Assembly: GCF_029945685.1 (NCBI RefSeq)
Contig: NZ_JAQSDA010000025.1
Location: forward strand, 248,001 to 312,000
Origin: Polaromonas sp.
GTDB lineage: Bacteria > Pseudomonadota > Gammaproteobacteria > Burkholderiales > Burkholderiaceae_C
Direction of reading: 5' to 3'
Length of the DNA stretch: 64,000 nt
The notes below the pieces were generated by a model. It saw nothing but the letters and a program-made list of their open reading frames with translations, was not told the DNA's origin and did no database searches. Positions within the stretch are counted from its first letter, which is position 1; each line of letters opens with the position of its first letter. The position numbers and the translations under genes were made by a program. This document shows positions 3,248-63,888 of this stretch, piece after piece.

Positions 3248-3357
3248 GGACATCTCCGTTTGAGAAGACCACCATAGTCCTGCGTGGCCTGGCCGGCCAT
3301 CAGACGAGTCCTATTTGTCGGTCAGACGGCCTCGCCGTGCCAGGTCCTTGATCTGGA

Positions 3358-3416
3358 GCAAAAACAGGCACCAGCCCAATCAGGACGGGCGCCAGCAGCT
3401 ATGAAATCAGGAGTTG
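3358..3416 (-). repeat. E60 dispersed element, copy at the 3' end of the LysE gene
   Basis: Read on the minus strand it runs TGATTTCATAGCTGCTGGCG, then CGCCCGTCC..., GGGCTGGTGCC and a T-rich end. This is the same layout as the other copies near 12.4, 14.4, 29.8, 42.9, 47.0, 56.7, 58.7 and 62.1 kb. The stop codon of the upstream LysE-type gene lies inside it. Nothing else is seen between 3254 and 3406. Confidence 0.75.
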
Positions 3417-4042
3417 CTGGCGCGGCGGTAGAAAGCCAGTGAGCCGGCCAGGCTCAGCAGGGCGCCGCCGCACAGGCGGTCCAGCCAGCGTGTGGCACCG
3501 GCCTTGAGCAGCCGCAACGCCCGCGCGCCGATGACGGCATAGGCCAGCATCACGGTGAAGTCCAGTCCCCCGAACACCAGTGCGATCGTGATGTACTGCG
3601 GCGCCTGGGTCGCGGCCGGGTCGATGAACTGCGGCAGCAGGGCGGAGCAAAACAGATAACCCTTGGGGTTGGTGGCGGCCACCAGAAAGGATTTCATGAA
3701 GATGGCCCGGCCATGGCGTGGTTCGGCATCGGCCTCGCCGGCTGGCAATTCAAAACCGCCTTTCGAGCGCAGCATGCGCACGCCCAGCCAGGCCAGGTAG
3801 AGGGCCCCCACCCATTTGAGCACCGAGAACCAGAACTCCGAAGCCGCCAACAGTGCGCCCAGACCCAGCGCCACCGCACCGACCAGCACGAAGTCCGAGG
3901 CCACGGCCCCCAACATGCCGGGCACGGAGCGGCGAACGCCGTAACGCGAGCCGTTGATCAGCGCCAGCAGCACCGTGGGACCGGGCGTGGCGATCACCGC
4001 CAGCGCGACGGCTGCAAACAGCAGCAGGCTGCTGCTGGTCAT
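3407..4042 (-). CDS. LysE/RhtB-family amino acid exporter
   Basis: 211 aa inner-membrane protein with about six hydrophobic segments. The N-terminal ATPGPTVLLALINGSRYG motif is the signature of LysE/RhtB transporters, and PKGYLFCSALLPQF is a second conserved block. The start at 4042 is preferred over the ORF-track start at 4057 because it forms an ATGA overlap with the stop of the DUF1272 gene. Probable role: proton-driven efflux of amino acids or derivatives; the substrate is not readable. The C-terminus is cut by the E60 repeat, which provides the stop codon. Confidence 0.9.
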   Translation of the reverse strand: MTSSSLLLFAAVALAVIATPGPTVLLALINGSRYGVRRSVPGMLGAVASDFVLVGAVALGLGALLAASEFWFSVLKWVGALYLAWLGVRMLRSKGGFELPAGEADAEPRHGRAIFMKSFLVAATNPKGYLFCSALLPQFIDPAATQAPQYITIALVFGGLDFTVMLAYAVIGARALRLLKAGATRWLDRLCGGALLSLAGSLAFYRRASNS

Positions 4043-12300: not shown

Positions 12301-13354
12301 CAAGGGTGAGCTCGGTTCGCAGGCACGCGGCGCCTTCCAGGCGCTGGCCGGGCTGAAGGCACGCCCGGCGCCGCAGGAACGCCAGGATGCAGAGTCAAAT
12401 CGGCCTCAAGCCCAACAGGGGCGGGCGCAAGCAGCTCCTGAAAGCATAGCAAGTGAGAAGGTGCAGCCAGTCCGCACGCCGGAGCGTTACACCAGCTGGA
12501 GTTTTGGCGAGCTGCCCGAACTGATGGAAATCAGCAAAGGCAAGCAGACCTTGATCGGTTTTCCGGCGCTGATCGATCTTGGCGATGCGGTGACCATCGA
12601 GGTGTTCGACGAGCCCGACGTGGCCGCGGCGAAACACCGGGCCGGACTGCGGCGCCTGTTTTCGCTGCAGATCAAGGATGCGCTGAAGTACCTGGAAAAG
12701 AATTTGCCCGACCTGCAGAAAATGGCCACCAGCTACATGCTGGTGGGCCGTGCGGCCGACAACTCGGGCGGCGGCACGCTGGAGGAACTGCGCGAGCAGA
12801 TCATCGAAGTGGCGCTGGACCGTGCCTTTTTGCTGGAGCCGCTGCCGACCAACGAAGCCGACTTCAAAAAGCGCATCGACGACGGGCGCGGACGCCTGAC
12901 GCTGATTGCCAGCGAAGTCGCGCGGCTGGCGGCCGGCATCCTGGTCGAGTTTGCCGCGGCGCAGCGCAAGATCAAGGACACCAAAAATGCCGCGGAGGCC
13001 AGCGCGGATGCGGCGCAGCAGCTGCAGCGTCTGGTGCCCAAACGTTTCCTGACGGCGACGCCGTACACGCAGCTGCAGCACTTTCCGCGTTACCTCAAGG
13101 CCATCACGCTGCGGCTGGAGAAATGGCGCGCCGACCCGGCCCGCGATGCGGCCCGGCTCGCCGAGCTGCGGCCGCAGGAGCAGCGCTACTGGCGCCTGGT
13201 GGCCGAGCGCAAGGGTGCCACCGATGCGCGGCTGCAGGAACTGCGCTGGCTGCTTGAAGAGCTGCGCGTCAGCTTTTTTGCGCAGGAGCTGCGCACGCCG
13301 CAGCCGGTCAGCATCAAGCGGATTGAAAAAGCCTGGCTTCAACTGGTGGGTTGA
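9338..13354 (+). CDS. hrpA: ATP-dependent RNA helicase HrpA (DEAH box)
   Basis: 1338 aa, slightly longer than usual for HrpA. Walker A GETGSGKTTQ is at residues 48-57, DEAH at about 152, SATIDAQRF follows, and motif VI is NQRAGRCGRVADG; the long C-terminal DUF3418 region follows. HrpA helicases act on ribosome-bound mRNA and stalled ribosomes. Two repeat elements are translated inside it: a PSPQPSP-type inverted repeat at about residues 531-557 and an E60 copy at about 1020-1038; both keep the frame. The start is GTG at 9338, but GATAAT lies two bases before it, so a later start such as GTG 9380 is possible. Confidence 0.96.
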   Translation: MVLSPIPLSSPPLSVPLQIDFPESLPVSGKREEITAAIAAHQVVIVCGETGSGKTTQLPKIALAMGRGKLNYPAGQGKLIGHTQPRRIAASSVAKRIAEELKTPLGDVVGYKVRFQDRLSRDASVKLMTDGILLAETQTDPLLKAYDTIIIDEAHERSLNIDFLLGYLRQLLPRRPDLKVVITSATIDAQRFADYFASSKGPAPVILVSGRMFPVEQRYRPYEESRDYDLNDAIADGVDELWRNPHSAGDILIFLPGEREIREAADHLRKHLAHQPLFRNAEVLPLFARLSQAEQDRIFDGHTGRRIVLATNVAETSLTVPGIRYVIDAGTARVKRYSFRNKVEQLMVEPVSQAAANQRAGRCGRVADGICIRLYDEQDFLGRPRFTDPEILRSSLAAVILRMKALHLGTIESFAFIEPPQGRAIADGYQLLAELGAVDDDNELTPVGRNLARLPLDPRVGRMILEAKERQALDEVLVIASALSVQDVRDRPMDKQAQADQAHAKFDDEKSEFSGYLKLWKWLGDARGGRPSPQPSPGGRGSREVLLPRPLGEGGGEGTASHKLSNRQYENLLRENYINIRRVREWRDIHSQLHAVVGEQKWVLNDKPASYEQLHLSMLCGLLGNLGIKNEEDDWYLGARGIKFYRHPGAKLSKKPGRWIVAAELVETTRLFGRGIANIEPQWVEQVAGHLLKKQLLDPHWEKKAAQVTALERATLYGLVIYNGRRVNFGRVDPVTAREIFIREALVAGNWDTKLPFLQANLKLIEQVQDLEHKARRQDVLVDEELIYAFYDQQLPADICTGAGCEHWYKDEVKKQPQLLLLSREELMRHEAAGITTQAFPKTLRLGGVDCIATYLHEPGDARDGVTVDVPLFALNQVNEERCEWLVPGMLKDKVQALIKTLHQRPRSRLVPLPDTAARMATDLLQPEKFGAGSLTDAVLKLVRDTTSLDIKRGDMKIDMLAPHLFMNFRVVDEHGRQLGTGRNLGALKGELGSQARGAFQALAGLKARPAPQERQDAESNRPQAQQGRAQAAPESIASEKVQPVRTPERYTSWSFGELPELMEISKGKQTLIGFPALIDLGDAVTIEVFDEPDVAAAKHRAGLRRLFSLQIKDALKYLEKNLPDLQKMATSYMLVGRAADNSGGGTLEELREQIIEVALDRAFLLEPLPTNEADFKKRIDDGRGRLTLIASEVARLAAGILVEFAAAQRKIKDTKNAAEASADAAQQLQRLVPKRFLTATPYTQLQHFPRYLKAITLRLEKWRADPARDAARLAELRPQEQRYWRLVAERKGATDARLQELRWLLEELRVSFFAQELRTPQPVSIKRIEKAWLQLVG
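10928..11010. repeat. PSPQPSP-type inverted repeat inside hrpA
   Basis: An 83-bp palindromic element with perfect 10-bp ends (CCCTCACCCC ... GGGGTGAGGG) and an internal hairpin CCCTCTCCC-GGC-GGGAGAGGG. It is translated in hrpA as PSPQPSPGGRGSREVLLPRP. Elements of this type are common between genes in many proteobacteria and often give such Pro/Ser/Gly-rich peptides; here it is in-frame within an essential-looking fold. Confidence 0.85.
12395..12452 (-). repeat. E60 dispersed element inside hrpA
   Basis: Plus strand reads TCAAATCGGCCTCAAGCCC, then GGGCGGGCGCAAGCAGCT and a degenerate TATCAAA end. It is in-frame in hrpA and encodes RPQAQQGRAQAAPESIA. The RAQAA stretch is shared with the copy in truB. 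Confidence 0.8.
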
Positions 13355-13497
13355 GGCGAGGCTTTTCAGCGCAGGCTGACAACTGCCCGCAGGGCTTGTC
13401 ATGCCGTAGCTAAAAAGCCTGGCTTCAACTGGTGGGTTGAGGCGAGGCTTTTCAGCGCAGGCTGACAACTGCCCGCAGGGCTTGTCATGCCGTAGCT
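13326..13497 (+). repeat. 86-bp tandem duplication of the hrpA 3' end
   Basis: Two perfect 86-bp copies (13326-13411 and 13412-13497), each starting AAAAAGCCTGGCTTCAACTG. The first holds the last codons and stop of hrpA (KAWLQLVG). A partial third copy (AAAGCCTGG) follows. Each copy contains the hairpin GACAA-ct-GCCC-gca-GGGC-TTGTC, which could act as a 3' mRNA end structure, although no T-run follows. Confidence 0.9.
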
Positions 13498-13769: not shown

Positions 13770-14400
13770 GGAGAACTCCTTGTTATGTATGCACTGATTC
13801 TTGCCTGTTGTTCTCCTGGATCAAGCAGGAAGGGGCGCTGACTCACCGTCAGGGAGTTCCTACAGTTGGGGGTCACGCGCTGCTTTGCTGTGCCGTGATC
13901 TGATGCGGGCTTGATTCTGTCTGTAGTTCACCGACAAGCCGGGTCTCGCCCCGGCGGGCGACTCCCTTTTCTTTGCGTCGCCAAAGAAAAGGAAGCAAAA
14001 GAAAGGCGACCCGACTGTCTGGGTCCTTCCGCTTCGCTCCAGGCAACCTGCGCTGCTCGCCTGCGGCGGGGGTCGGCAGAACTCGCTGCGCTCGGACAAC
14101 TGCCGCCCTGATCCCGCCTCCGTCTGCGCTGCTCGGCCCAGCCAAACGGGTGGGGGGAGCGAAGACAGAAATCGGGGAGACATGACGCGCATAGCGCGTC
14201 ATGTCGGAGCCAAGCGGCTGTGATGTTTGCACGCGGCGGCAAGCACACGCGGCCAAATGAAGTCCTCCTCCATCGCCCAGCGGGGCGAGGGCAGGGGTTA
14301 GGGGTGGGAGTGGGGAGTTCGACCTACTGTCCAGAGCGGACCGCAGGCGCAGCGTGATGCCGCCAATGCGTCCAACCCTCTCGCAAGCCGAATCCATTGA
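13770..14400. other. Gene-free repeat-derived region
   Basis: About 630 bases with ORFs on both strands but no believable gene. The minus strand would encode PFFCFLFFGDAKKRESPAGA; I know this peptide type from a repeated intergenic element of Burkholderiales that is often mis-annotated as a hypothetical protein. The stretch also has short alternating-strand repeats (TGCGCTGCTCG, TCGCTGCGCTCG), a perfect 11-bp hairpin, and a degenerate PSPQPSP-type segment near 14265-14310. I read it as accumulated non-coding repeats. The upstream 13770-13859 part should hold the DUF3309 promoter, but I cannot place it. Confidence 0.6.
14179..14205. repeat. Perfect 11-bp hairpin
   Basis: GACATGACGCG-CATAG-CGCGTCATGTC, a perfect 11-bp inverted repeat with a 5-base loop and no T-run. 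It lies inside the repeat-rich gene-free stretch. Function unknown. Confidence 0.85.
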
Positions 14401-14460
14401 TGAAATCGGCCTCCAGCCCTTACGGTTCGTGCGCAACCAGCTATCAATGTGATAGCAGCT
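14401..14460 (-). repeat. E60 dispersed element after the aminotransferase gene
   Basis: Plus strand TGAAATCGGCCTCCAGCCCT, then GTGCGCAACCAGCTATCAAT and GATAGCAGC. A complete copy lying immediately after the aminotransferase stop codon. Confidence 0.85.
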
Positions 14461-23967: not shown

Positions 23968-24066
23968 TAGGTGAGACGACGTGCGCAGCGCAGGGCCGCC
24001 CCAAGCAAGCACAGCCCCCTCGGGGGGCAGCGTAGTACACGTAGTGACAAGCATGGGGGTCATCAA
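23968..24066 (-). repeat. C/G-rich dispersed element, copy 1
   Basis: On the minus strand it reads TGACCCCCATGCTTG..., ACGCTGCCCCCCGAGGGGGC, TTGGGGCGGCCC. It is closely similar to the element at 34.8 kb and related to those at 33.7 and 45.2 kb. It fills the gap between the SPFH and DUF2237 genes. Confidence 0.8.
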
Positions 24067-29806: not shown

Positions 29807-29835
29807 GCAGCCGGTTCAGCACGGCTATGCTCACA

Positions 29836-29890
29836 TTTTAATAGCTGTTGTCGCCCGTGCATCAAGGGCTGAAGCCATATTTGGCTTCAA
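29836..29890 (+). repeat. E60 dispersed element, complete copy
   Basis: TTTTAATAGCTGTTGTCGCC, then CGTGCATCAAGGGCTGAAGCC and ATATTTGGCTTCAAA. One of the best-preserved intergenic copies in plus orientation, lying between the convergent GNAT and fabI genes. Confidence 0.88.
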
Positions 29891-29915
29891 ACCCGGGATG
29901 AGACCCTGAGCCGGT

Positions 29916-34831: not shown

Positions 34832-36540
34832 CGGCCCCCACGCTCCGCACTGACGTGTCGTCGCTGCCCCCCGAGGGGGCTGAACTTGCTCGGGGCGGCC
34901 CTTCGCCGCGTTCGACGGCCCCCACGCCCGGCACGGAGGTGTCCTGTCTTCTTGAGGTCAAGAATCTGCGCGTGTCCTTCGCCGGCAAGGAGGTTGTGCG
35001 CGGCATCGACTTTTCCATCCAGCCCGGTGAAAAACTCGCGCTGGTCGGGGAGTCGGGCTCCGGAAAAACCGTCACCGCACTGAGCCTGCTGCGCCTCGTG
35101 CAGAACGCTGCCATCAGCGGCAAGGCGACCTTCGCCGGACATGACGGGGCTGTCGACCTGCTGTCCCTGCCCGAGCGGGCCTTGCGCGGTATCCGCGGCC
35201 AGGACATCGCGATGATTTTCCAGGAGCCGATGACGGCCCTGAACCCGCTGTTCACCGTGGGTGAGCAGATTGCCGAAGTCCTGCAGCTGAAAAAGGCCCT
35301 GACGCCCGCCGAATCTGCGCAGGCAGCTATTAAATTGCTAGCGGATACCGGCATCCCCGAGGCCGCCCGGCGTGCGGGCTCCTACCCGCACCAGCTCTCG
35401 GGCGGCCAGCGCCAGCGCGCCATGATTGCCATGGCGCTGGCCTGTCAGCCCAAATTGTTGCTGGCCGACGAGCCGACCACGGCGCTGGATGTCACGCTGC
35501 GCACGCAGATCCTGGACCTGCTGACCGGGCTGCAGCAGCGCAACGGCATGGCGGTGCTCCTGATCACCCACGACCTGAACCTGGTTCGGCGCTTTGCCGA
35601 CCGCATTGCCGTGATGGAGGACGGGCGCATTGTGGAGACCGGGCCGGTGGCGCAGGTGTTCGAGCAGCCGCAGCATGCCTACACCCGCAAACTGATCGAC
35701 AGCCGGCCGGCACGCGATGTGGTGGAGCGCCGGGTTGACCCGGCCGCCGCCGCGGTGCTGCAGGCCCGGGACCTGCGGGTGACGTACCCGCTGCCGATTC
35801 CCGGGGTGCGCGGCTGGTTTCGCAAGGGCGAGTTTGTGGCACTCCATGGCGCCAGTTTCCAGGTCCCCGCCGGCCAGACCCTGGGGGTGATCGGGGAGTC
35901 CGGGTCGGGCAAATCCACGCTGGCCCTGGCCGCGCTGGGCCTGCATCCGCACCAGGGGCAGCTGCTGGCGGCGGGCCAGGCCTGGAGCGGCGATGCGGCC
36001 GCCAACAAACGTATCCGCCGCGCGGTGCAGGTGGTGTTCCAGGACCCGTTTTCCTCGCTCTCGCCGCGCATGACGGTCGAGGAAATTGTCGGGGAAGGCC
36101 TGCGCGTGCACGAGCCGGGGCTGTCCGCCGGCCAGCGGCGTGAGCGGGTGCTGCAGGCGCTGGCGGAGGTGGGCATGGGCGAGACGCAGTTTCCGGGGTT
36201 GTTACAGCGTTATCCGCACGAGTTTTCCGGGGGCCAGCGCCAGCGCCTGGCGATTGCCCGGGCCCTGATCATCCAGCCCCAATTGCTGGTGCTGGACGAA
36301 CCGACCAGCGCCCTGGACGTGACGATCCAGAAACAGGTGCTTCAGCTGCTGCAAAAACTCCAGCGCGAGCATGGCCTGAGCTACCTGTTGATCACCCACG
36401 ACGTGGACGTGATCCGGGCCATGGCGCACCAGGTCATGGTGCTCAAGGACGGCGAGGTGCTGGAAGCCGGCAGCGTGGACGAGGTGCTGGAGCGGCCGCA
36501 GCATCCTTACACCCAGACCCTGGTGGCGGCACAAGGCTGA
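34828..36540 (+). CDS. yejF: Peptide ABC transporter duplicated ATPase YejF
   Basis: 570 aa starting in the yejE stop (ATGA); the ORF track starts inside yejE. Two ATPase halves: Walker A GESGSGKTVTAL and GESGSGKSTLALAA, signatures LSGGQRQRAMIAMAL and FSGGQRQRLAIARAL, Walker B LLLADEPTTALD and LLVLDEPTSALD. The first ~40 residues (TAPTLRTDVSSLPPEGAELA...) are translated from a C/G-rich repeat and precede the true start of homology, LLEVKNLRVSFAGKE. A partial E60 copy underlies SAQAAIKLLA near residue 167. Confidence 0.94.
   Translation: MTAPTLRTDVSSLPPEGAELARGGPSPRSTAPTPGTEVSCLLEVKNLRVSFAGKEVVRGIDFSIQPGEKLALVGESGSGKTVTALSLLRLVQNAAISGKATFAGHDGAVDLLSLPERALRGIRGQDIAMIFQEPMTALNPLFTVGEQIAEVLQLKKALTPAESAQAAIKLLADTGIPEAARRAGSYPHQLSGGQRQRAMIAMALACQPKLLLADEPTTALDVTLRTQILDLLTGLQQRNGMAVLLITHDLNLVRRFADRIAVMEDGRIVETGPVAQVFEQPQHAYTRKLIDSRPARDVVERRVDPAAAAVLQARDLRVTYPLPIPGVRGWFRKGEFVALHGASFQVPAGQTLGVIGESGSGKSTLALAALGLHPHQGQLLAAGQAWSGDAAANKRIRRAVQVVFQDPFSSLSPRMTVEEIVGEGLRVHEPGLSAGQRRERVLQALAEVGMGETQFPGLLQRYPHEFSGGQRQRLAIARALIIQPQLLVLDEPTSALDVTIQKQVLQLLQKLQREHGLSYLLITHDVDVIRAMAHQVMVLKDGEVLEAGSVDEVLERPQHPYTQTLVAAQG
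34832..34944 (+). repeat. C/G-rich dispersed element translated as the YejF N-terminus, copy 3
   Basis: GGCCCCCACGCTCCGCACTG, CGCTGCCCCCCGAGGGGGCT, CTCGGGGCGGCCC, closely matching the copy at 24.0 kb. An imperfect direct repeat flanks the core (ACGGCCCCCACGCTCCGCAC and ACGGCCCCCACGCCCGGCAC), encoding TAPTLRTDVS and TAPTPGTEVS. Confidence 0.8.
35317..35342 (-). repeat. Possible E60 remnant inside yejF
   Basis: GCGCAGGCAGCTATTAAATT followed by GCTAGC. It matches the GCGC..GCAGCTAT..A..TAGC core of E60 in the same frame as the truB copy (AQAAIK), but is short enough to be chance. Confidence 0.4.
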
Positions 36541-42344: not shown

Positions 42345-43361
42345 ATGACGCAAACTTCTCCTCATCGCCAAAAGATACAGCGCCGTCCCGTGCATGGCGT
42401 GTTGTTGCTCGACAAGCCGCTGGGCCTGTCGAGCAATCAGGCCTTGCAGAAAGCGAAGTGGCTGCTGCGTGCGGACAAGGCCGGTCATACCGGCACGCTG
42501 GACCCGCTGGCGACCGGCGTGTTGCCCCTGTGTTTCGGCGCGGCCACCAAGTTCAGCCAGTTGCAGCTCGACGCCGACAAGACCTACGAAGCCGTGCTGC
42601 TGCTGGGCCAGAAAACCAGTACCGCCGATGCCGAAGGCGAGGTGATTGAAACGCGCCCGGTTCCGGCCATCACTTTGGCGCTGCTGGACGAGTTGACGCG
42701 TCGTTTCACCGGGTCGCAAACCCAGGTCCCGCCCATGTATTCGGCCCTGAAGAAGGATGGCAAGGCGCTGTACGAATATGCGCGCAAGGGCCAGGACGTG
42801 GAGCGGGAAGCCCGTCACATCACCATTTACAAGCTGAATATGGCTCCGGCCCTTGATCCACGGGCGCAAGCAGCTATCAAAATCATAGTGTCGTGCAGCA
42901 AGGGTACCTACATCCGCACGCTCGGCGAGGACATCGGCGAGGCCATCGGCTGCGGCGCCCACCTGGGCTCGCTGCGGCGGCTGGAGACCGGCGGTTACAC
43001 CGACCGCCAGTGCGTGAGTCTGCCTGTGCTCGAAGCCATGAGCGAGGCCGAACGTGAGGCCTGTTTGCTGCCGGTGCAGTCGCTGGTGGCCGCTTTTCCG
43101 TCTGTCACATTGGACGCCGATGATGCAGGGCGCTTCCTGAGCGGCCTGCGTCGCCGCGGCAGCCCGGGCCAGTGGGGGCCTGACGCCGCGCTGGTGCAGG
43201 TCTTCGGGTCTGATCCTGCGGCTTTCCTGGGCTCGGCCCATGTCACCGCCGATGAATTGATCCCCGGGCGCCTGCTCAGCCCGATTGAAATCCAGGACAT
43301 GCTGATTGCCTGCCCGTCCCCCTCTTCCAGCCCTGCGGCGCCTGCCGCACTGGCCCATTAA
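42345..43361 (+). CDS. truB: tRNA pseudouridine(55) synthase TruB
   Basis: 338 aa. VHGVLLLDKPLGLSSNQALQ, and the catalytic Asp 53 in GHTGTLDPLATGVLPLC; the YxA motif appears as ADKTYEAVLLLG; CSKGTYIRTLGEDIG is the late conserved block. It makes pseudouridine 55 in the T loop of tRNAs. Residues ~166-182 (APALDPRAQAAIKIIV) are encoded by an E60 element placed just before CSKGTYIR, so a beta-strand of the family has been built from repeat sequence. The C-terminal PUA-like region is short and Pro/Ala-rich. Confidence 0.96.
   Translation: MTQTSPHRQKIQRRPVHGVLLLDKPLGLSSNQALQKAKWLLRADKAGHTGTLDPLATGVLPLCFGAATKFSQLQLDADKTYEAVLLLGQKTSTADAEGEVIETRPVPAITLALLDELTRRFTGSQTQVPPMYSALKKDGKALYEYARKGQDVEREARHITIYKLNMAPALDPRAQAAIKIIVSCSKGTYIRTLGEDIGEAIGCGAHLGSLRRLETGGYTDRQCVSLPVLEAMSEAEREACLLPVQSLVAAFPSVTLDADDAGRFLSGLRRRGSPGQWGPDAALVQVFGSDPAAFLGSAHVTADELIPGRLLSPIEIQDMLIACPSPSSSPAAPAALAH
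42841..42890 (-). repeat. E60 dispersed element inside truB
   Basis: TGGCTCCGGCCCTTGATCCA followed by CGGGCGCAAGCAGCTATC and AAAATCATAG. Complete copy, in frame, encoding APALDPRAQAAIKII. Confidence 0.9.
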
Positions 43362-46314: not shown

Positions 46315-47447
46315 ACCAGACAACAACACACACACCGGCCCACAGCGAGATCCTGACCGAGGTGCGCGGGCGGGTCGGCTTCATCACGCTGAACCGGCCC
46401 AAGGCGCTCAATGCGCTGTCGCTGTCCATGGTGCGCGAGCTGGCGGCAACGCTGACGGCATGGCGCGATGACGCGGCCGTGGTGGCCGTGGCCATTCGCG
46501 GGACCAACAAGGCGGGGCGTCCCGGCACGCCGGAGAGCCTGTTCGGCGGATTTTGCGCCGGCGGCGACATCCGCTTTTTTCACCAGGCCGCGCTCGCCGG
46601 CGACACGGGCCTGGACGCGTTTTTCACCGAGGAATACCGCCTCAACCACCTGATCCACAACTATCCCAAACCCTACATTGCCTTCATGGACGGTGTGGTG
46701 ATGGGCGGTGGCATGGGAATCAGTGTCGGTGCCAGCGTCCGCATCGTGACCGAACACACCAGGATGGCCATGCCGGAAACCAACATCGGGTTGTTTCCCG
46801 ATGTCGGCGGTGGCTACTTCCTGAGCCGCTGCCCGGGCAGTGTGGGGGAGTACCTAGCGTTGACCGGGGTGGTGATTGGTGCGGACGAGGCGCTCGCCTA
46901 CGGCCTGGCCGACATCGAGCGGCCCGCTGCCAGCCTGCCGGGTCTGTGGCAGCAGCTGGGGGATCAGGCCTTTTCCGATGTTTCCGCGGCCGAGTTATGG
47001 ATTGCTACTAATTTTGTAGCTGGTGGCGCCCGTCGTGAAAGGGCTGAGGGCAGATTTGATGCTTGTTTTTCGCTGGCCCGGGTGAAACACATCGTCGATG
47101 CCCTGGAAGCCGCGAAGGACGACGACTGGGCGCAAAAGACCGCTGTCGTGCTGCGCAAACGCTCACCGCTGATGCTGCATGTGACCCTGGAGCAGATCCG
47201 CCGCGCCCGCAGCATGAGCCTGGCGGACGATCTGCGCATGGAGCGCGACATGGTGCACCACTGCTTCCACCTCCGCCCAGGCGCGGCCGGCGAAACGGTC
47301 GAGGGCATACGCGCACTGGCCGTCGACAAGGACTACACGCCGAAGTGGAACCCGGCCCGCATTGAAGACGTCAAGCCGCAGATGGTGCAGGCGTTTTTCG
47401 CCAGTCCCTGGGCGGCCGACGCGCATCCCCTTCGCGACCTCCAGTGA
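46311..47447 (+). CDS. 3-hydroxyisobutyryl-CoA hydrolase (enoyl-CoA hydratase/isomerase fold)
   Basis: 378 aa from the ATG overlapping the transporter stop; GGAG lies ten bases before. Crotonase core: VGFITLNRPKALNALSLSMV, FCAGGDIRFFHQ (oxyanion hole), MDGVVMGGGMGISVGASVRI, MPETNIGLFPDVGGGYFLSR with the catalytic Glu/Asp pair of the hydrolase type, and a long C-terminal half. Likely valine catabolism. An E60 copy is translated at about residues 230-250 (IATNFVAGGARRERAEGRFD). Confidence 0.92.
   Translation: MNQTTTHTPAHSEILTEVRGRVGFITLNRPKALNALSLSMVRELAATLTAWRDDAAVVAVAIRGTNKAGRPGTPESLFGGFCAGGDIRFFHQAALAGDTGLDAFFTEEYRLNHLIHNYPKPYIAFMDGVVMGGGMGISVGASVRIVTEHTRMAMPETNIGLFPDVGGGYFLSRCPGSVGEYLALTGVVIGADEALAYGLADIERPAASLPGLWQQLGDQAFSDVSAAELWIATNFVAGGARRERAEGRFDACFSLARVKHIVDALEAAKDDDWAQKTAVVLRKRSPLMLHVTLEQIRRARSMSLADDLRMERDMVHHCFHLRPGAAGETVEGIRALAVDKDYTPKWNPARIEDVKPQMVQAFFASPWAADAHPLRDLQ
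47001..47063 (+). repeat. E60 dispersed element inside the 3-hydroxyisobutyryl-CoA hydrolase gene
   Basis: ATTGCTACTAATTTTGTAGC, TGGTGGCGCCCGTCGTGAAA, GGGCTGAGGGCAGATTTGA. Complete copy in plus orientation, in frame; its peptide IATNFVAGGAR parallels IATKSIAGGAW in the LD-carboxypeptidase. Confidence 0.88.
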
Positions 47448-56430: not shown

Positions 56431-56670
56431 ATGCGTGCCGTCTTTGGCGTTCTGAGCCTGCTGATTGTTGTCGCCATCATCGGCGTGCTGGCGAAAAAGC
56501 AGCTCTCCCCGGCGCCTGTGAAGGTGGCACCGGCAGACGCTGGCCTGGCTTTGCCCGCGCTGGAGTCCGGCGCCACACCGCAGCAGCAAAGCCAGCAGAT
56601 CCAGAATCAGGTGCGCCAGTCGATTGAGAGCGCGATGCAGCAGACCCGGCCCATGCCGGAAGACAAATGA
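56431..56670 (+). CDS. Small single-helix membrane or exported protein
   Basis: 79 aa. One N-terminal hydrophobic helix (MRAVFGVLSLLIVVAIIGVL, then AKKQ), then a Pro/Ala spacer and a Gln-rich helix (QQQSQQIQNQVRQSIESAMQ). No family recognised; similar small proteins are found in Comamonadaceae. It begins one base after the PaiB-like stop, so it is translated from the same message. An E60 element follows. Confidence 0.75.
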   Translation: MRAVFGVLSLLIVVAIIGVLAKKQLSPAPVKVAPADAGLALPALESGATPQQQSQQIQNQVRQSIESAMQQTRPMPEDK

Positions 56671-56676
56671 TCCATA

Positions 56677-56736
56677 TCAAATCGGGCTCTGGCCCTTGTG
56701 ATAATTGCGCAAGCTGCTATTAAAAACGAAGCAATC
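56677..56736 (-). repeat. E60 dispersed element forming the leader of the tadA fusion gene
   Basis: TCAAATCGGGCTCTGGCCCT, then TTGCGCAAGCTGCTATTAAA and AACGAAGCAATC. Complete copy filling the whole gap between the small membrane gene and the TadA-dehalogenase ATG. Confidence 0.88.
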
Positions 56737-58184: not shown

Positions 58185-59135
58185 GTGAAAAAACATATCT
58201 ACATCTACTCCCCCTCCAGCGCCGTGCGCGACAAGGCTGCTTTCAAGCGCGGCGTGCGGCGCCTGACCGCGCTGGGTTACGAGGTCGAGCTTGACGAGGC
58301 CGCGCTGAGCAGCTACCAGCGTTTTGCCGGCGACGACGAAACCCGGCTGGCCGCGATCGCCCGGGCGGCCGCCAGCGGTGCCGATGTGGCGTTGATCTCC
58401 CGGGGCGGCTACGGCCTGACACGCCTGCTGCCGCATATCAACTACAAGGCGCTGGACAAGGCCGTGTCCCGGGGAACGCGTTTTGTCGGCCTGAGCGATT
58501 TCACGGCCCTGCAAAATGCGCTGCTGGCCAAAACCGGGGCAGTGACCTGGGCCGGTCCGGCACTCGGCGAGGACTTCGGAACCGAAGGCCAGCCGGACGA
58601 CATCATGGAAGCCTGCTTTGACGACCTGATCACAAGGCAGGGCGAAGGCACCGGCTGGCGGCTGCCGAAAATTGCTACGAAATCAATAGCTGGCGGCGCT
58701 TGGCAGGCGGGGGCTGACGGCCAATTTGGCGTGAAGAATGCAGTGTTATGGGGCGGCAACCTTGCGGTGCTGAGTTCGCTCGTGGGCACCCCTTACCTGC
58801 CTGAGGTGAAGGGTGGCATTCTGTTTCTGGAAGAGGTGCATGAACACCCGTACCGGCTGGAGCGCATGTTGACACAGCTGCTGCACGCTGGCGTGCTGGC
58901 GCGGCAGAAGGCGGTGGTGCTGGGGCAGTTCACCAACTACAAGCTCGTGCCGCACGACAAGGGGTTCAAGCTGGCCACGGTGGTGGCGTGGTTGCAGCGC
59001 CAGATCAAGGCGCCGGTGCTCAGTGGGCTGCCTTTTGGTCATGTGCCGACCAAGGTGGTGTTGCCGGTGGGAGAGAAAGTGACACTGGCCGTAGAGGACC
59101 GGGATGCTTTCCTTCTCTGGGGTCACAGCCATTGA
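58185..59135 (+). CDS. ldcA: LD-carboxypeptidase (S66 family)
   Basis: 316 aa from the GTG at 58185 (VKKHIYIYSPSSAVRDKAAF); the ORF track starts far inside the previous gene. S66 features: LISRGGYGLTRLLPHINY, nucleophile Ser 104 in FVGLSDFTALQ, Glu in LFLEEVHEHPYRLERML and His in GLPFGHVPTKVVLPVG. It trims the terminal D-Ala of murein tetrapeptides in recycling. An E60 copy is translated at about residues 162-181 (KIATKSIAGGAWQAGADGQF), just before VKNAVLWGGNL. GATACT lies close upstream of the GTG. Confidence 0.93.
   Translation: MKKHIYIYSPSSAVRDKAAFKRGVRRLTALGYEVELDEAALSSYQRFAGDDETRLAAIARAAASGADVALISRGGYGLTRLLPHINYKALDKAVSRGTRFVGLSDFTALQNALLAKTGAVTWAGPALGEDFGTEGQPDDIMEACFDDLITRQGEGTGWRLPKIATKSIAGGAWQAGADGQFGVKNAVLWGGNLAVLSSLVGTPYLPEVKGGILFLEEVHEHPYRLERMLTQLLHAGVLARQKAVVLGQFTNYKLVPHDKGFKLATVVAWLQRQIKAPVLSGLPFGHVPTKVVLPVGEKVTLAVEDRDAFLLWGHSH
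58670..58731 (+). repeat. E60 dispersed element inside ldcA
   Basis: AATTGCTACGAAATCAATAG, CTGGCGGCGCTTGG, GGGGGCTGACGGCCAATTTG. Complete copy in plus orientation, in the same frame as the 3-hydroxyisobutyryl-CoA hydrolase copy. Confidence 0.88.
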
Positions 59136-61350: not shown

Positions 61351-63888
61351 ATGGTCTGGATCAAACGGTTTTTCTGGGTTTTGCTGGTGCTGCTCGCAGG
61401 GCTGGCGGCTGCGCTGGCCGTGTACGCCACGCGGGCCTTGCCTGCACTGGATGGCGAACTCAGGCTGCCCGCCCTGGCAGCGCCCGTGACCGTGGCGCGC
61501 GACGGTGCCGACGTCACCCACATCAAGGCCCAGACCCCGCGCGACGCCTGGATGGCGCTCGGTTACGTGCATGCGCAGGAGCGCGGCTGGCAACTGGAGT
61601 TCAACCGCCGGGTCATGCACGGCGAGCTCTCCGAGGTGCTGGGCGAGGCCACGCTGGACACCGACCGGCTGATGCGCACGCTGGGCATCATGGAGGCGGC
61701 GCAGCGCCAGTGGCAGGTGCTGCCGGCCGAGGCAAAACAGGCGCTGCAGGCCTACAGCGACGGCGTCAACGCGTTTTATGCCGGTGGCGCCCAGGCGCTG
61801 TCACCGGAATTCCACATCCTCGGCGTCAAGCCCGGTGGCGCCGGCCTGCCGTGGACGCCGCAGGACAGTGTGGGGTGGGCGCTGATGATGGCGCTCGACC
61901 TGGGCGGCAACTGGGGCAATGAGTTTGCGCGTCTTTCTGCAGCCAGGGTTCTCAGCACCCAGGAGTTGTGGCAGCTGTTCACGCCCTACCCGGGGGAGGC
62001 GCCGGCCTCCAGAACCGATTTCGCCAAACTATATGCCGGGCTCGGGGTCTTCCGCCCCGACGCTATCAAAACAGGAGCTGTCGCGCCATTACAGGAAAGG
62101 GATGGAGGCCTTTTCGGCATGCAAACCCTGGCCGCAAAGCCGGACCTGCTGGCGCTCGACATCAACGACTGGGCCGCCAACATCGGCAACGTGGAAGGCA
62201 AGGGATCGAACAACTGGGTGGTGGCCGGCGGCCACACCGTCAGCGGCAAACCCCTGCTGGCGAACGACCCGCACCTGGGTCTGTCGGCGCCTGCCATCTG
62301 GTACTTCGCCCGGCTGCAGGCACCCGCGGGCAAGGGGGCCGACGGCAAGGCCACCCCTGCGCTGGATGTCATTGGTGCCACTTTGCCAGGCCTGCCCTTT
62401 GTGGTGCTGGGCCGCACGGCCAGGGTGGCCTGGGGCTTTACCAACACCGGCCCCGATGTGCAGGACCTCTACCTCGAGCAGATCAATCCCGCCAACCCGC
62501 AGCAATACCGGGTACCCGGCAGCGGCGCGGTGCAATGGGCAGACTTCAGCACCCGCAGCGAAACCATCCGGGTCAAGGGCAAGCCCGACGTCAGCCTGAA
62601 GGTGCGCATCAGCCGCCACGGCCCGGTGCTCAGCGATGCGCAGAAAACCCATGCCGAGTTGCTGGACACCGCCAGGTACGTGATCGCACTGCGCTGGAGC
62701 GCGCTGGAAACCGAGAACCTGACCGCCGTGGCGGCCTTGCGCGCCAACCAGGCGCAATCGGTGGACGAGCTGATCGCCGCCTACGCCGACCACCACTCGC
62801 CGATGCAGAACGTGGTGATGGCTGACGTGACCGGCAAGGTCGCCTACAAGGCGATCGGCAAGGTGCCGCTGCGCAAGGCCGACAACGACATTCTCGGCAT
62901 CGCGCCGTCACCGGGCTGGGACGCCAGATATGACTGGGCGGGCTGGTTGCCCTACGCGCAGACGCCGCAGGCCGATGCGACGACGATCGGCAAAAAGGGC
63001 TGGTTCTCCAATGCCAACCAGAGCGTGGTGCCGGCGGGTTCCGACCTTTTCCTCGGGCAGGACTGGGTCGTGCCTTACCGCTTCGACCGCATCGAAAAAC
63101 TGCTGTCCGCCCAACCCCGGCATGACGCCGCATCCATGCAGGCCATCCAGTCCGACCAGCTGTCGTCGGCGACCTTGCGCTTGTTGCCCTTGTTGCAGAA
63201 AACCGTGTCGCAGCATCCGCTGGCCGCGCAAGCGCAGTCGGCGCTGGCCGGCTTTGACGGTGTGATGCGGGCTGACAGTGCGGCGCCGCTGATTTTTTCG
63301 GTCTGGGTCGATGAACTGACCCGCGGCGTGATCGGCAGCAAGCTGGGCGAGGCGCGCTTCAAAAGCATGTACGGCAAGCGCCATTTCCGCAGCGCGATTG
63401 AAGAGATGGTGGAGCGCGACGACAAGGCCTGGTGCGGGGCCGCCGGCTGTGCCGCCCAGTCCACGGCGGCGCTGGACCGCGCCCTGACGGCCCTGCAGGC
63501 CAAGTGGGGCAGCCAGCCTGCGCAATGGAAGTGGGGCGAGGCACACCCGGCGCTGTCGGCGCACCGGCCTTTCAGCAATGTGGCCGCGCTGGCGCGGCTG
63601 TTTGACGTCAGTGTGCCGACCGGCGGGGACTCGTTCACGGTCAATGTGGGCCAGTACTGGCCCAATGATGAAAAAATTCCGTTCGCCAACCGGCATGCCG
63701 CCTCGCTGCGCGCGGTTTACGACCTGGCCGACCCCGAAAAATCGCGGTTCATTTACCAGACCGGTCAGAGCGGCCTGTTTTTTTCCGGCCGCTACCGCGA
63801 CATGAGCGGCACATGGGCCGACGTCGGCTACCGCCCGCTGCAGATGAACCCGGCCGGCTTCACCCACGAGCTGAAGCTCAAGCCCTGA
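61351..63888 (+). CDS. Penicillin acylase family protein (Ntn hydrolase)
   Basis: 845 aa from the ATG at 61351 with AAGGAGGAG before it; the ORF track starts inside the ALDH gene. N-terminal signal/anchor (FFWVLLVLLAGLAAALAVYA), alpha chain (DAWMALGYVHAQERGWQLEF), then the autoprocessing site and beta-chain nucleophile Ser 286 in GKGSNNWVVAGGHT, with NDPHLGL and the FSNANQSVVP region. Ntn hydrolases of this family cleave amides such as acyl-homoserine lactones, penicillins or amides. An E60 copy lies at residues 237-256, within the expected excised spacer. Confidence 0.92.
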   Translation: MVWIKRFFWVLLVLLAGLAAALAVYATRALPALDGELRLPALAAPVTVARDGADVTHIKAQTPRDAWMALGYVHAQERGWQLEFNRRVMHGELSEVLGEATLDTDRLMRTLGIMEAAQRQWQVLPAEAKQALQAYSDGVNAFYAGGAQALSPEFHILGVKPGGAGLPWTPQDSVGWALMMALDLGGNWGNEFARLSAARVLSTQELWQLFTPYPGEAPASRTDFAKLYAGLGVFRPDAIKTGAVAPLQERDGGLFGMQTLAAKPDLLALDINDWAANIGNVEGKGSNNWVVAGGHTVSGKPLLANDPHLGLSAPAIWYFARLQAPAGKGADGKATPALDVIGATLPGLPFVVLGRTARVAWGFTNTGPDVQDLYLEQINPANPQQYRVPGSGAVQWADFSTRSETIRVKGKPDVSLKVRISRHGPVLSDAQKTHAELLDTARYVIALRWSALETENLTAVAALRANQAQSVDELIAAYADHHSPMQNVVMADVTGKVAYKAIGKVPLRKADNDILGIAPSPGWDARYDWAGWLPYAQTPQADATTIGKKGWFSNANQSVVPAGSDLFLGQDWVVPYRFDRIEKLLSAQPRHDAASMQAIQSDQLSSATLRLLPLLQKTVSQHPLAAQAQSALAGFDGVMRADSAAPLIFSVWVDELTRGVIGSKLGEARFKSMYGKRHFRSAIEEMVERDDKAWCGAAGCAAQSTAALDRALTALQAKWGSQPAQWKWGEAHPALSAHRPFSNVAALARLFDVSVPTGGDSFTVNVGQYWPNDEKIPFANRHAASLRAVYDLADPEKSRFIYQTGQSGLFFSGRYRDMSGTWADVGYRPLQMNPAGFTHELKLKP
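62061..62117 (+). repeat. E60 dispersed element inside the penicillin acylase gene
   Basis: CGCTATCAAAACAGGAGCTG, TCGCGCCATTACAGGAAAGG, GATGGAGGCCTTTTCGG. Plus orientation, in frame, about 30 codons before the nucleophile Ser 286. Confidence 0.78.

Follow-up and report, generated by a model that had tools for sequence, protein, structure and literature searches.

An in-frame insert in the penicillin acylase gene of Polaromonas sp. is a member of a high-copy family of 64-bp dispersed repeats, designated E60, and judging from its silent positions it looks maintained at nucleic-acid level. The copy occupies positions 62062-62125 (plus strand) of the analysed window, a stretch of 64,000 nucleotides, and matches the E60 covariance model with 50 bits (E=4e-16). 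It is read in frame as codons 238-258 plus one base, with zero stop codons. Its extent had been given as 62061-62117 (residues 237-256) in a previous sequence-only reading; this is correct within few bases, but residue 237 (Asp) sits just ahead of the element and outside it. The first 18 nt of the copy, GCTATCAAAACAGGAGCT (62062-62079, plus strand), here referred to as the head, encode residues 238-243 (AIKTGA), and this is the part conserved at silent positions.

The covariance model comprises 64 positions and was built from 30 genomic copies, the acylase copy among them. It has at least 150 matches in the whole Polaromonas genome. A looser pattern of the head yields 203 genome matches as opposed to 8 for the reversed control, and the exact pattern occurs once in the 64-kb window, where none is expected by chance. 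Nine further copies were detected in the window by the model, with E-values from 7e-18 to 4e-7: 47004-47067, 58674-58737 and 29824-29892 on the plus strand, and 12387-12450, 14393-14456, 42826-42889, 3351-3417, 56669-56732 and 35279-35342 on the minus strand. The family has about 52% GC and only three consensus base pairs in the model. Rfam search of the window returned one tRNA and nothing else, and full-text literature search with E60 sequence strings retrieved no relevant paper.

The host gene (61351-63888, plus strand) codes for 845 aa plus stop and belongs to the penicillin acylase family (PF01804, S45 Ntn-hydrolases). Its product contains an N-terminal hydrophobic helix (residues 2-29) and a single Pfam domain, PF01804 Penicil_amidase (E=1e-205, profile positions 1-671 of 675 matched). 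This nearly whole-length match is combined with G285-S286 at the predicted beginning of the beta chain, in line with membership of the S45 family. Ser286 (codon TCG, 62206-62208, plus strand), directly following Gly285, is predicted to act as the nucleophile at the N-terminus of the beta chain; it is invariant across an alignment of 77 homologs and aligns with Ser1 of solved beta chains. Both the enzyme family and the nucleophile had been recognised correctly from the sequence alone. D-succinylase (7EBY), N176 cephalosporin acylase (4HSR), MacQ and E. coli penicillin G acylase share with the window acylase its fold, the conserved Gly-Ser autocleavage motif and the alpha-linker-beta layout. The linker of the window acylase differs from theirs in that a genomic repeat has made it longer.

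The AlphaFold model of the acylase has mean pLDDT of 93.3. Values fall in the linker, where successive ten-residue blocks average 51 (241-250), 43 (251-260), 54 (261-270) and 66 (271-280), and codons 247-263 (62089-62139, plus strand) are predicted to be disordered (pLDDT <50). Since predicted order stops at about residue 240 and confidence stays low to about residue 280, E60 begins about where order ends. The segment holding E60 also varies in length among orthologs. Predicted disorder and variable length thus agree with the earlier placement of E60 in the alpha/beta linker ahead of Ser286.

The same reading suggested that the insert may be cut out at maturation and tolerated because its product is discarded. 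Position in the linker is compatible with this, but published spacers, which range from 10 to 54 residues, point both ways as to excision of E60. In PvdQ, the spacer comprises 23 residues. E. coli penicillin G acylase is made as an 846-aa precursor with a leader of 26 residues, an alpha chain ending at A209 and a 54-residue spacer (PMC2845550), its beta chain being 557 aa long. Spacers of 27 residues in MacQ (PMC5566955) and of 10 residues in N176, SE83 and KAC-1 (PMC9712332) have been described. D-succinylase is the closest whole-chain relative of the window acylase by sequence and fold. From its crystal, in which 761 of 824 residues are ordered, and a likely 32-residue signal peptide, its spacer would measure at most about 31 residues, which in the window acylase would reach back to about residue 255.

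Structural comparison with characterised acylases had been suggested as a check of excision, and its outcome is divided. When lengths are counted back from Ser286, the E. coli spacer of 54 residues would cover residues 232-285 and thus all of E60. It is the only one to do so; lengths of 27 (MacQ), at most about 31 (D-succinylase) and 10 (N176) would leave E60 on the alpha chain. When counted forward, in a rough and ungapped manner, alpha-chain ends of the E. coli, Bacillus and N176 enzymes fall at about residues 245-249, inside E60, so that a split product with E60 cut through is also possible. Given the varied spacer lengths and the forward count, sequence comparison leans to E60 being retained or cut through. 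Excision appears somewhat disfavoured, nearest relatives favouring the alpha-chain side. In crystallised MacQ, the spacer was still bound to the molecule and the alpha/spacer cut seemed imprecise (PMC5566955). Up to 18 spacer residues remained on the alpha chain of E. coli acylase made in yeast (PMC2845550).

E60 copies of the same genome also interrupt recognisable proteins that have no excised spacer, and do so at retained linkers. They are located between Fer2_2 and FAD_binding_5 in a xanthine-dehydrogenase subunit, between POR and DUF6537 in an indolepyruvate-oxidoreductase-like protein, between the two EamA halves of an EamA protein, between ABC and C-terminal domains of a Uup-like protein, and inside thymidylate kinase (tmk). 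More than one reading frame is used by these copies. Others are antisense to genes, and for many of the fetched copies no convincing coding frame runs across the element. It is thus reasonable to conclude that linkers in general accept E60. Because proteins without an excised spacer are interrupted as well, discarding of the product is unnecessary to explain tolerance, and nucleotide conservation (see below) suggests that the element is not just tolerated but preserved.

XdhB and tmk were rejected as clean additional insertions, and XdhA, whose fetched loci end ahead of the E60 site, was left out of the comparison. In XdhB (residues 500-521 of L032), species without the motif (L318, L319) have protein sequence of equal length where the E60-like DNA lies. 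In tmk (residues 120-141 of L029), the case is ambiguous, as E60-encoded LSKLE resembles LSTLE or LATLE found at that spot in related species. Both were for these reasons left out of the main evidence. Such a pattern might arise if the repeat replaced, or targeted, sequence similar to that of its head.

Silent positions of the acylase gene were compared in 14 species, using 269 fourfold-degenerate codons with invariant two-base prefix. Only four of them end with A or T in all 14 species, namely codons 238, 241, 242 and 243 (GCT, ACA, GGA and GCT), and all four belong to the E60 head. On a tree built without the E60 region, these codons underwent no change, while each of the remaining 26 fourfold codons with A or T as third base in the window gene changed between one and six times (mean 3.6, none zero; rank test, P about 3.6e-5). 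If base composition is ignored and fixation alone is considered, 39 of the 269 codons are fixed, which gives P of about 4e-4. In Rhodoferax, the third base is the same in 4/4 head codons, compared with 6/26 (23%) of other A/T-ending codons that still end with A or T. Residues 244-248, for which the middle of E60 codes, on the contrary vary freely among orthologs.

Similar conservation was observed in two other genes. In Uup (30 species) and in the POR/DUF6537 gene (16 E60-rich species), all fourfold codons in which A or T makes up at least 90% of third bases are located in E60, two of two in each gene (P about 9e-5 and about 4e-4, respectively). The signal is weak in XdhB, and the silent-site test of tmk gave no significant signal. 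A/T-ending fourfold codons are rare in the tested genes (mean 8-15%). In each gene the evidence comprises only two to five codons, and the pattern emerged in the course of the analysis and had not been predicted; its support lies in the agreement of three genes, in the within-gene control of A/T-ending codons and in the Rhodoferax comparison.

Further, we examined the distribution of the acylase insertion. Fourteen of 24 Polaromonas orthologs, the window gene counted in, have E60 at the same codons (75-100% identity). Six contain a more diverged E60 (L073, L005, L074, L075, L077 and L079), and in four the linker is shortened or degraded (L006, L076, L007 and L078). The distance from the LY motif to Ser286 is 56-63 residues when E60 is present and 46-53 in shortened linkers. 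The Rhodoferax ortholog (L117; 59% identity by tblastn, 62% by pairwise alignment) carries E60 at the same place (E=1e-8), and just a KTGA-like remnant is found at the site in Limnohabitans. No match of the E60 model was obtained at this site in Hydrogenophaga, Ramlibacter and Acidovorax orthologs. The simplest history would be one in-frame insertion predating the Polaromonas/Rhodoferax split, with later decay in some lines.

Two Polaromonas genomes, G032 and G065 (loci L006, L076, L240, L242 and L318-L321), are poor in E60, with 5 and 9 matches, respectively, versus 63 to at least 150 in the other Polaromonas genomes compared. Loss of the acylase copy is common to both, and their POR gene has CTG-TCC where E60-rich species have CTA-TCA. 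Their GC3 is 0.885-0.899 versus 0.68-0.86 in the others, which could itself erode A/T codons. As the two are probably sister species, their losses count as one event. Comparison with these genomes is a natural way to search for a factor that would maintain E60. The acylase copy is lost or degraded also in G025 and G095, which are E60-rich, so its retention in the acylase is not obligatory.

We consider it probable that the protein tolerates the insert by means of a structureless linker and that the insert persists by selection on its own nucleotide sequence. A member of the E60 family would have entered the acylase in frame in a common ancestor of Polaromonas and Rhodoferax. It would have been tolerated since the alpha/beta linker, like linkers of other E60 hosts, bears no structure. 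Its persistence would result from selection on E60 nucleotides, which some component of E60-bearing cells would recognise as DNA or as RNA, rather than from usefulness of the peptide or from its removal.

That E60 forms part of a long spacer of E. coli type, cut out at maturation, and survives because its product is discarded seems rather unlikely to us. The E. coli spacer length and the end of predicted order at about residue 240 are consistent with it. It is, however, at odds with the shorter spacers of the closest solved relatives and with E60s in proteins that have no excised spacer, and it leaves the frozen silent sites unexplained. These sites bear equally on the notion of a neutral relic, a harmless insert that is still E60-like as too little time has elapsed. 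Drift in the middle of the insert and loss or degradation of E60 in four orthologs would fit such a relic, but other A/T-ending silent sites of the same gene changed one to six times each on the same tree, and less than a quarter of them remain A/T-ending in Rhodoferax, where all E60 sites keep their base. We therefore regard a relic as improbable.

Selection on nucleotides has to be distinguished also from two processes that could produce frozen silent sites by other means. Gene conversion from other E60 copies, continually resetting the sequence, would have many donors at its disposal, and loss of the pattern in E60-poor genomes agrees with it. Conversion would nevertheless import the family consensus and homogenise the middle as well, whereas the 14 species keep a head of their own, ending with ACAGGAGCT where the consensus has GTAGCT, and this private GGAGCT is common to the Rhodoferax copy. 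Because of this shared private sequence, such concerted evolution appears very doubtful. Alternatively, a cluster of rare A/T-ending codons might slow the ribosome at a domain boundary, selection then acting on translation. Coding E60s are indeed often located between domains, and codons of this type are rare in the tested genes. The conserved letters, however, are in different codon phase in the acylase (GCT-ATC-AAA) and in the oxidoreductase (CTA-TCA), and copies antisense to genes or without convincing coding frame are not expected from pausing. We give this explanation little credence, mainly due to the difference in phase.

With more reservation, selection on E60 nucleotides might be extended to the family as a whole. 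E60s may represent genome-wide nucleic-acid sites that colonised coding genes at linkers and are kept by a factor restricted to lineages with E60. The same bases would then serve both a protein and a DNA or RNA function, with purifying selection acting on silent sites. Repeats inserted in frame into bacterial proteins are commonly regarded as selfish DNA that does no harm. In the present case, three unrelated genes show conserved silent positions, which seem to decay in the E60-poor sister genomes, and acceptance of the insert by proteins can be explained without a discarded peptide. The purpose of small repeats thus becomes testable by recoding of silent sites.

E60 shares several features with known repeats. 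Rickettsia palindromic elements (RPEs; Ogata et al. 2000, reviewed in PMC2229807) are likewise short dispersed repeats, both intergenic and in-frame, that are tolerated by the host protein. RPEs are 105-146 bp palindromes with long stem-loops, whereas E60, found in Comamonadaceae, has 64 positions with three consensus pairs, and identity of the two was rejected on these grounds. No report of silent-site conservation was found in the RPE literature consulted (PMC2229807). The Betaproteobacterial repeat element (BRE) is dispersed in Polaromonas, Rhodoferax and Acidovorax, and some of its copies, as in E60, are located inside coding sequences, even wholly within them (PMC3110155). Its published description, about 90 bp, 69% GC in Bordetella and at most 29 copies (PMC3110155), sets it apart from E60 in length and GC content, and in copy number as well.

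GTAG-tagged REP/RAYT systems (PMC3733652) also consist of high-copy short repeats, and GTAG is found in the consensus of E60. All 16 genomes checked, E60-poor and E60-free ones included, possess a RAYT-like gene (PF01797). None of these genes is flanked by a strong E60, and a weak match was detected near a Y1_Tnp gene at one of 12 loci. RAYT transposase was rejected as the mobiliser of E60, since the gene occurs independently of E60 and lacks flanking copies of it.

Other repeats occur in the window. A GC-rich inverted-repeat pair of 56 nt (23977-24032 and 34862-34917, 86% complementary) represents a second family; according to its length class and GC content, it may be BRE, for which it is a likelier candidate than E60. 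A similar GC-rich stretch is found as extra sequence just upstream of E60 in one ortholog of the POR gene (L247). Finally, positions 13326-13497 contain a perfect tandem duplication of 86 nt, the two copies being 100% identical.
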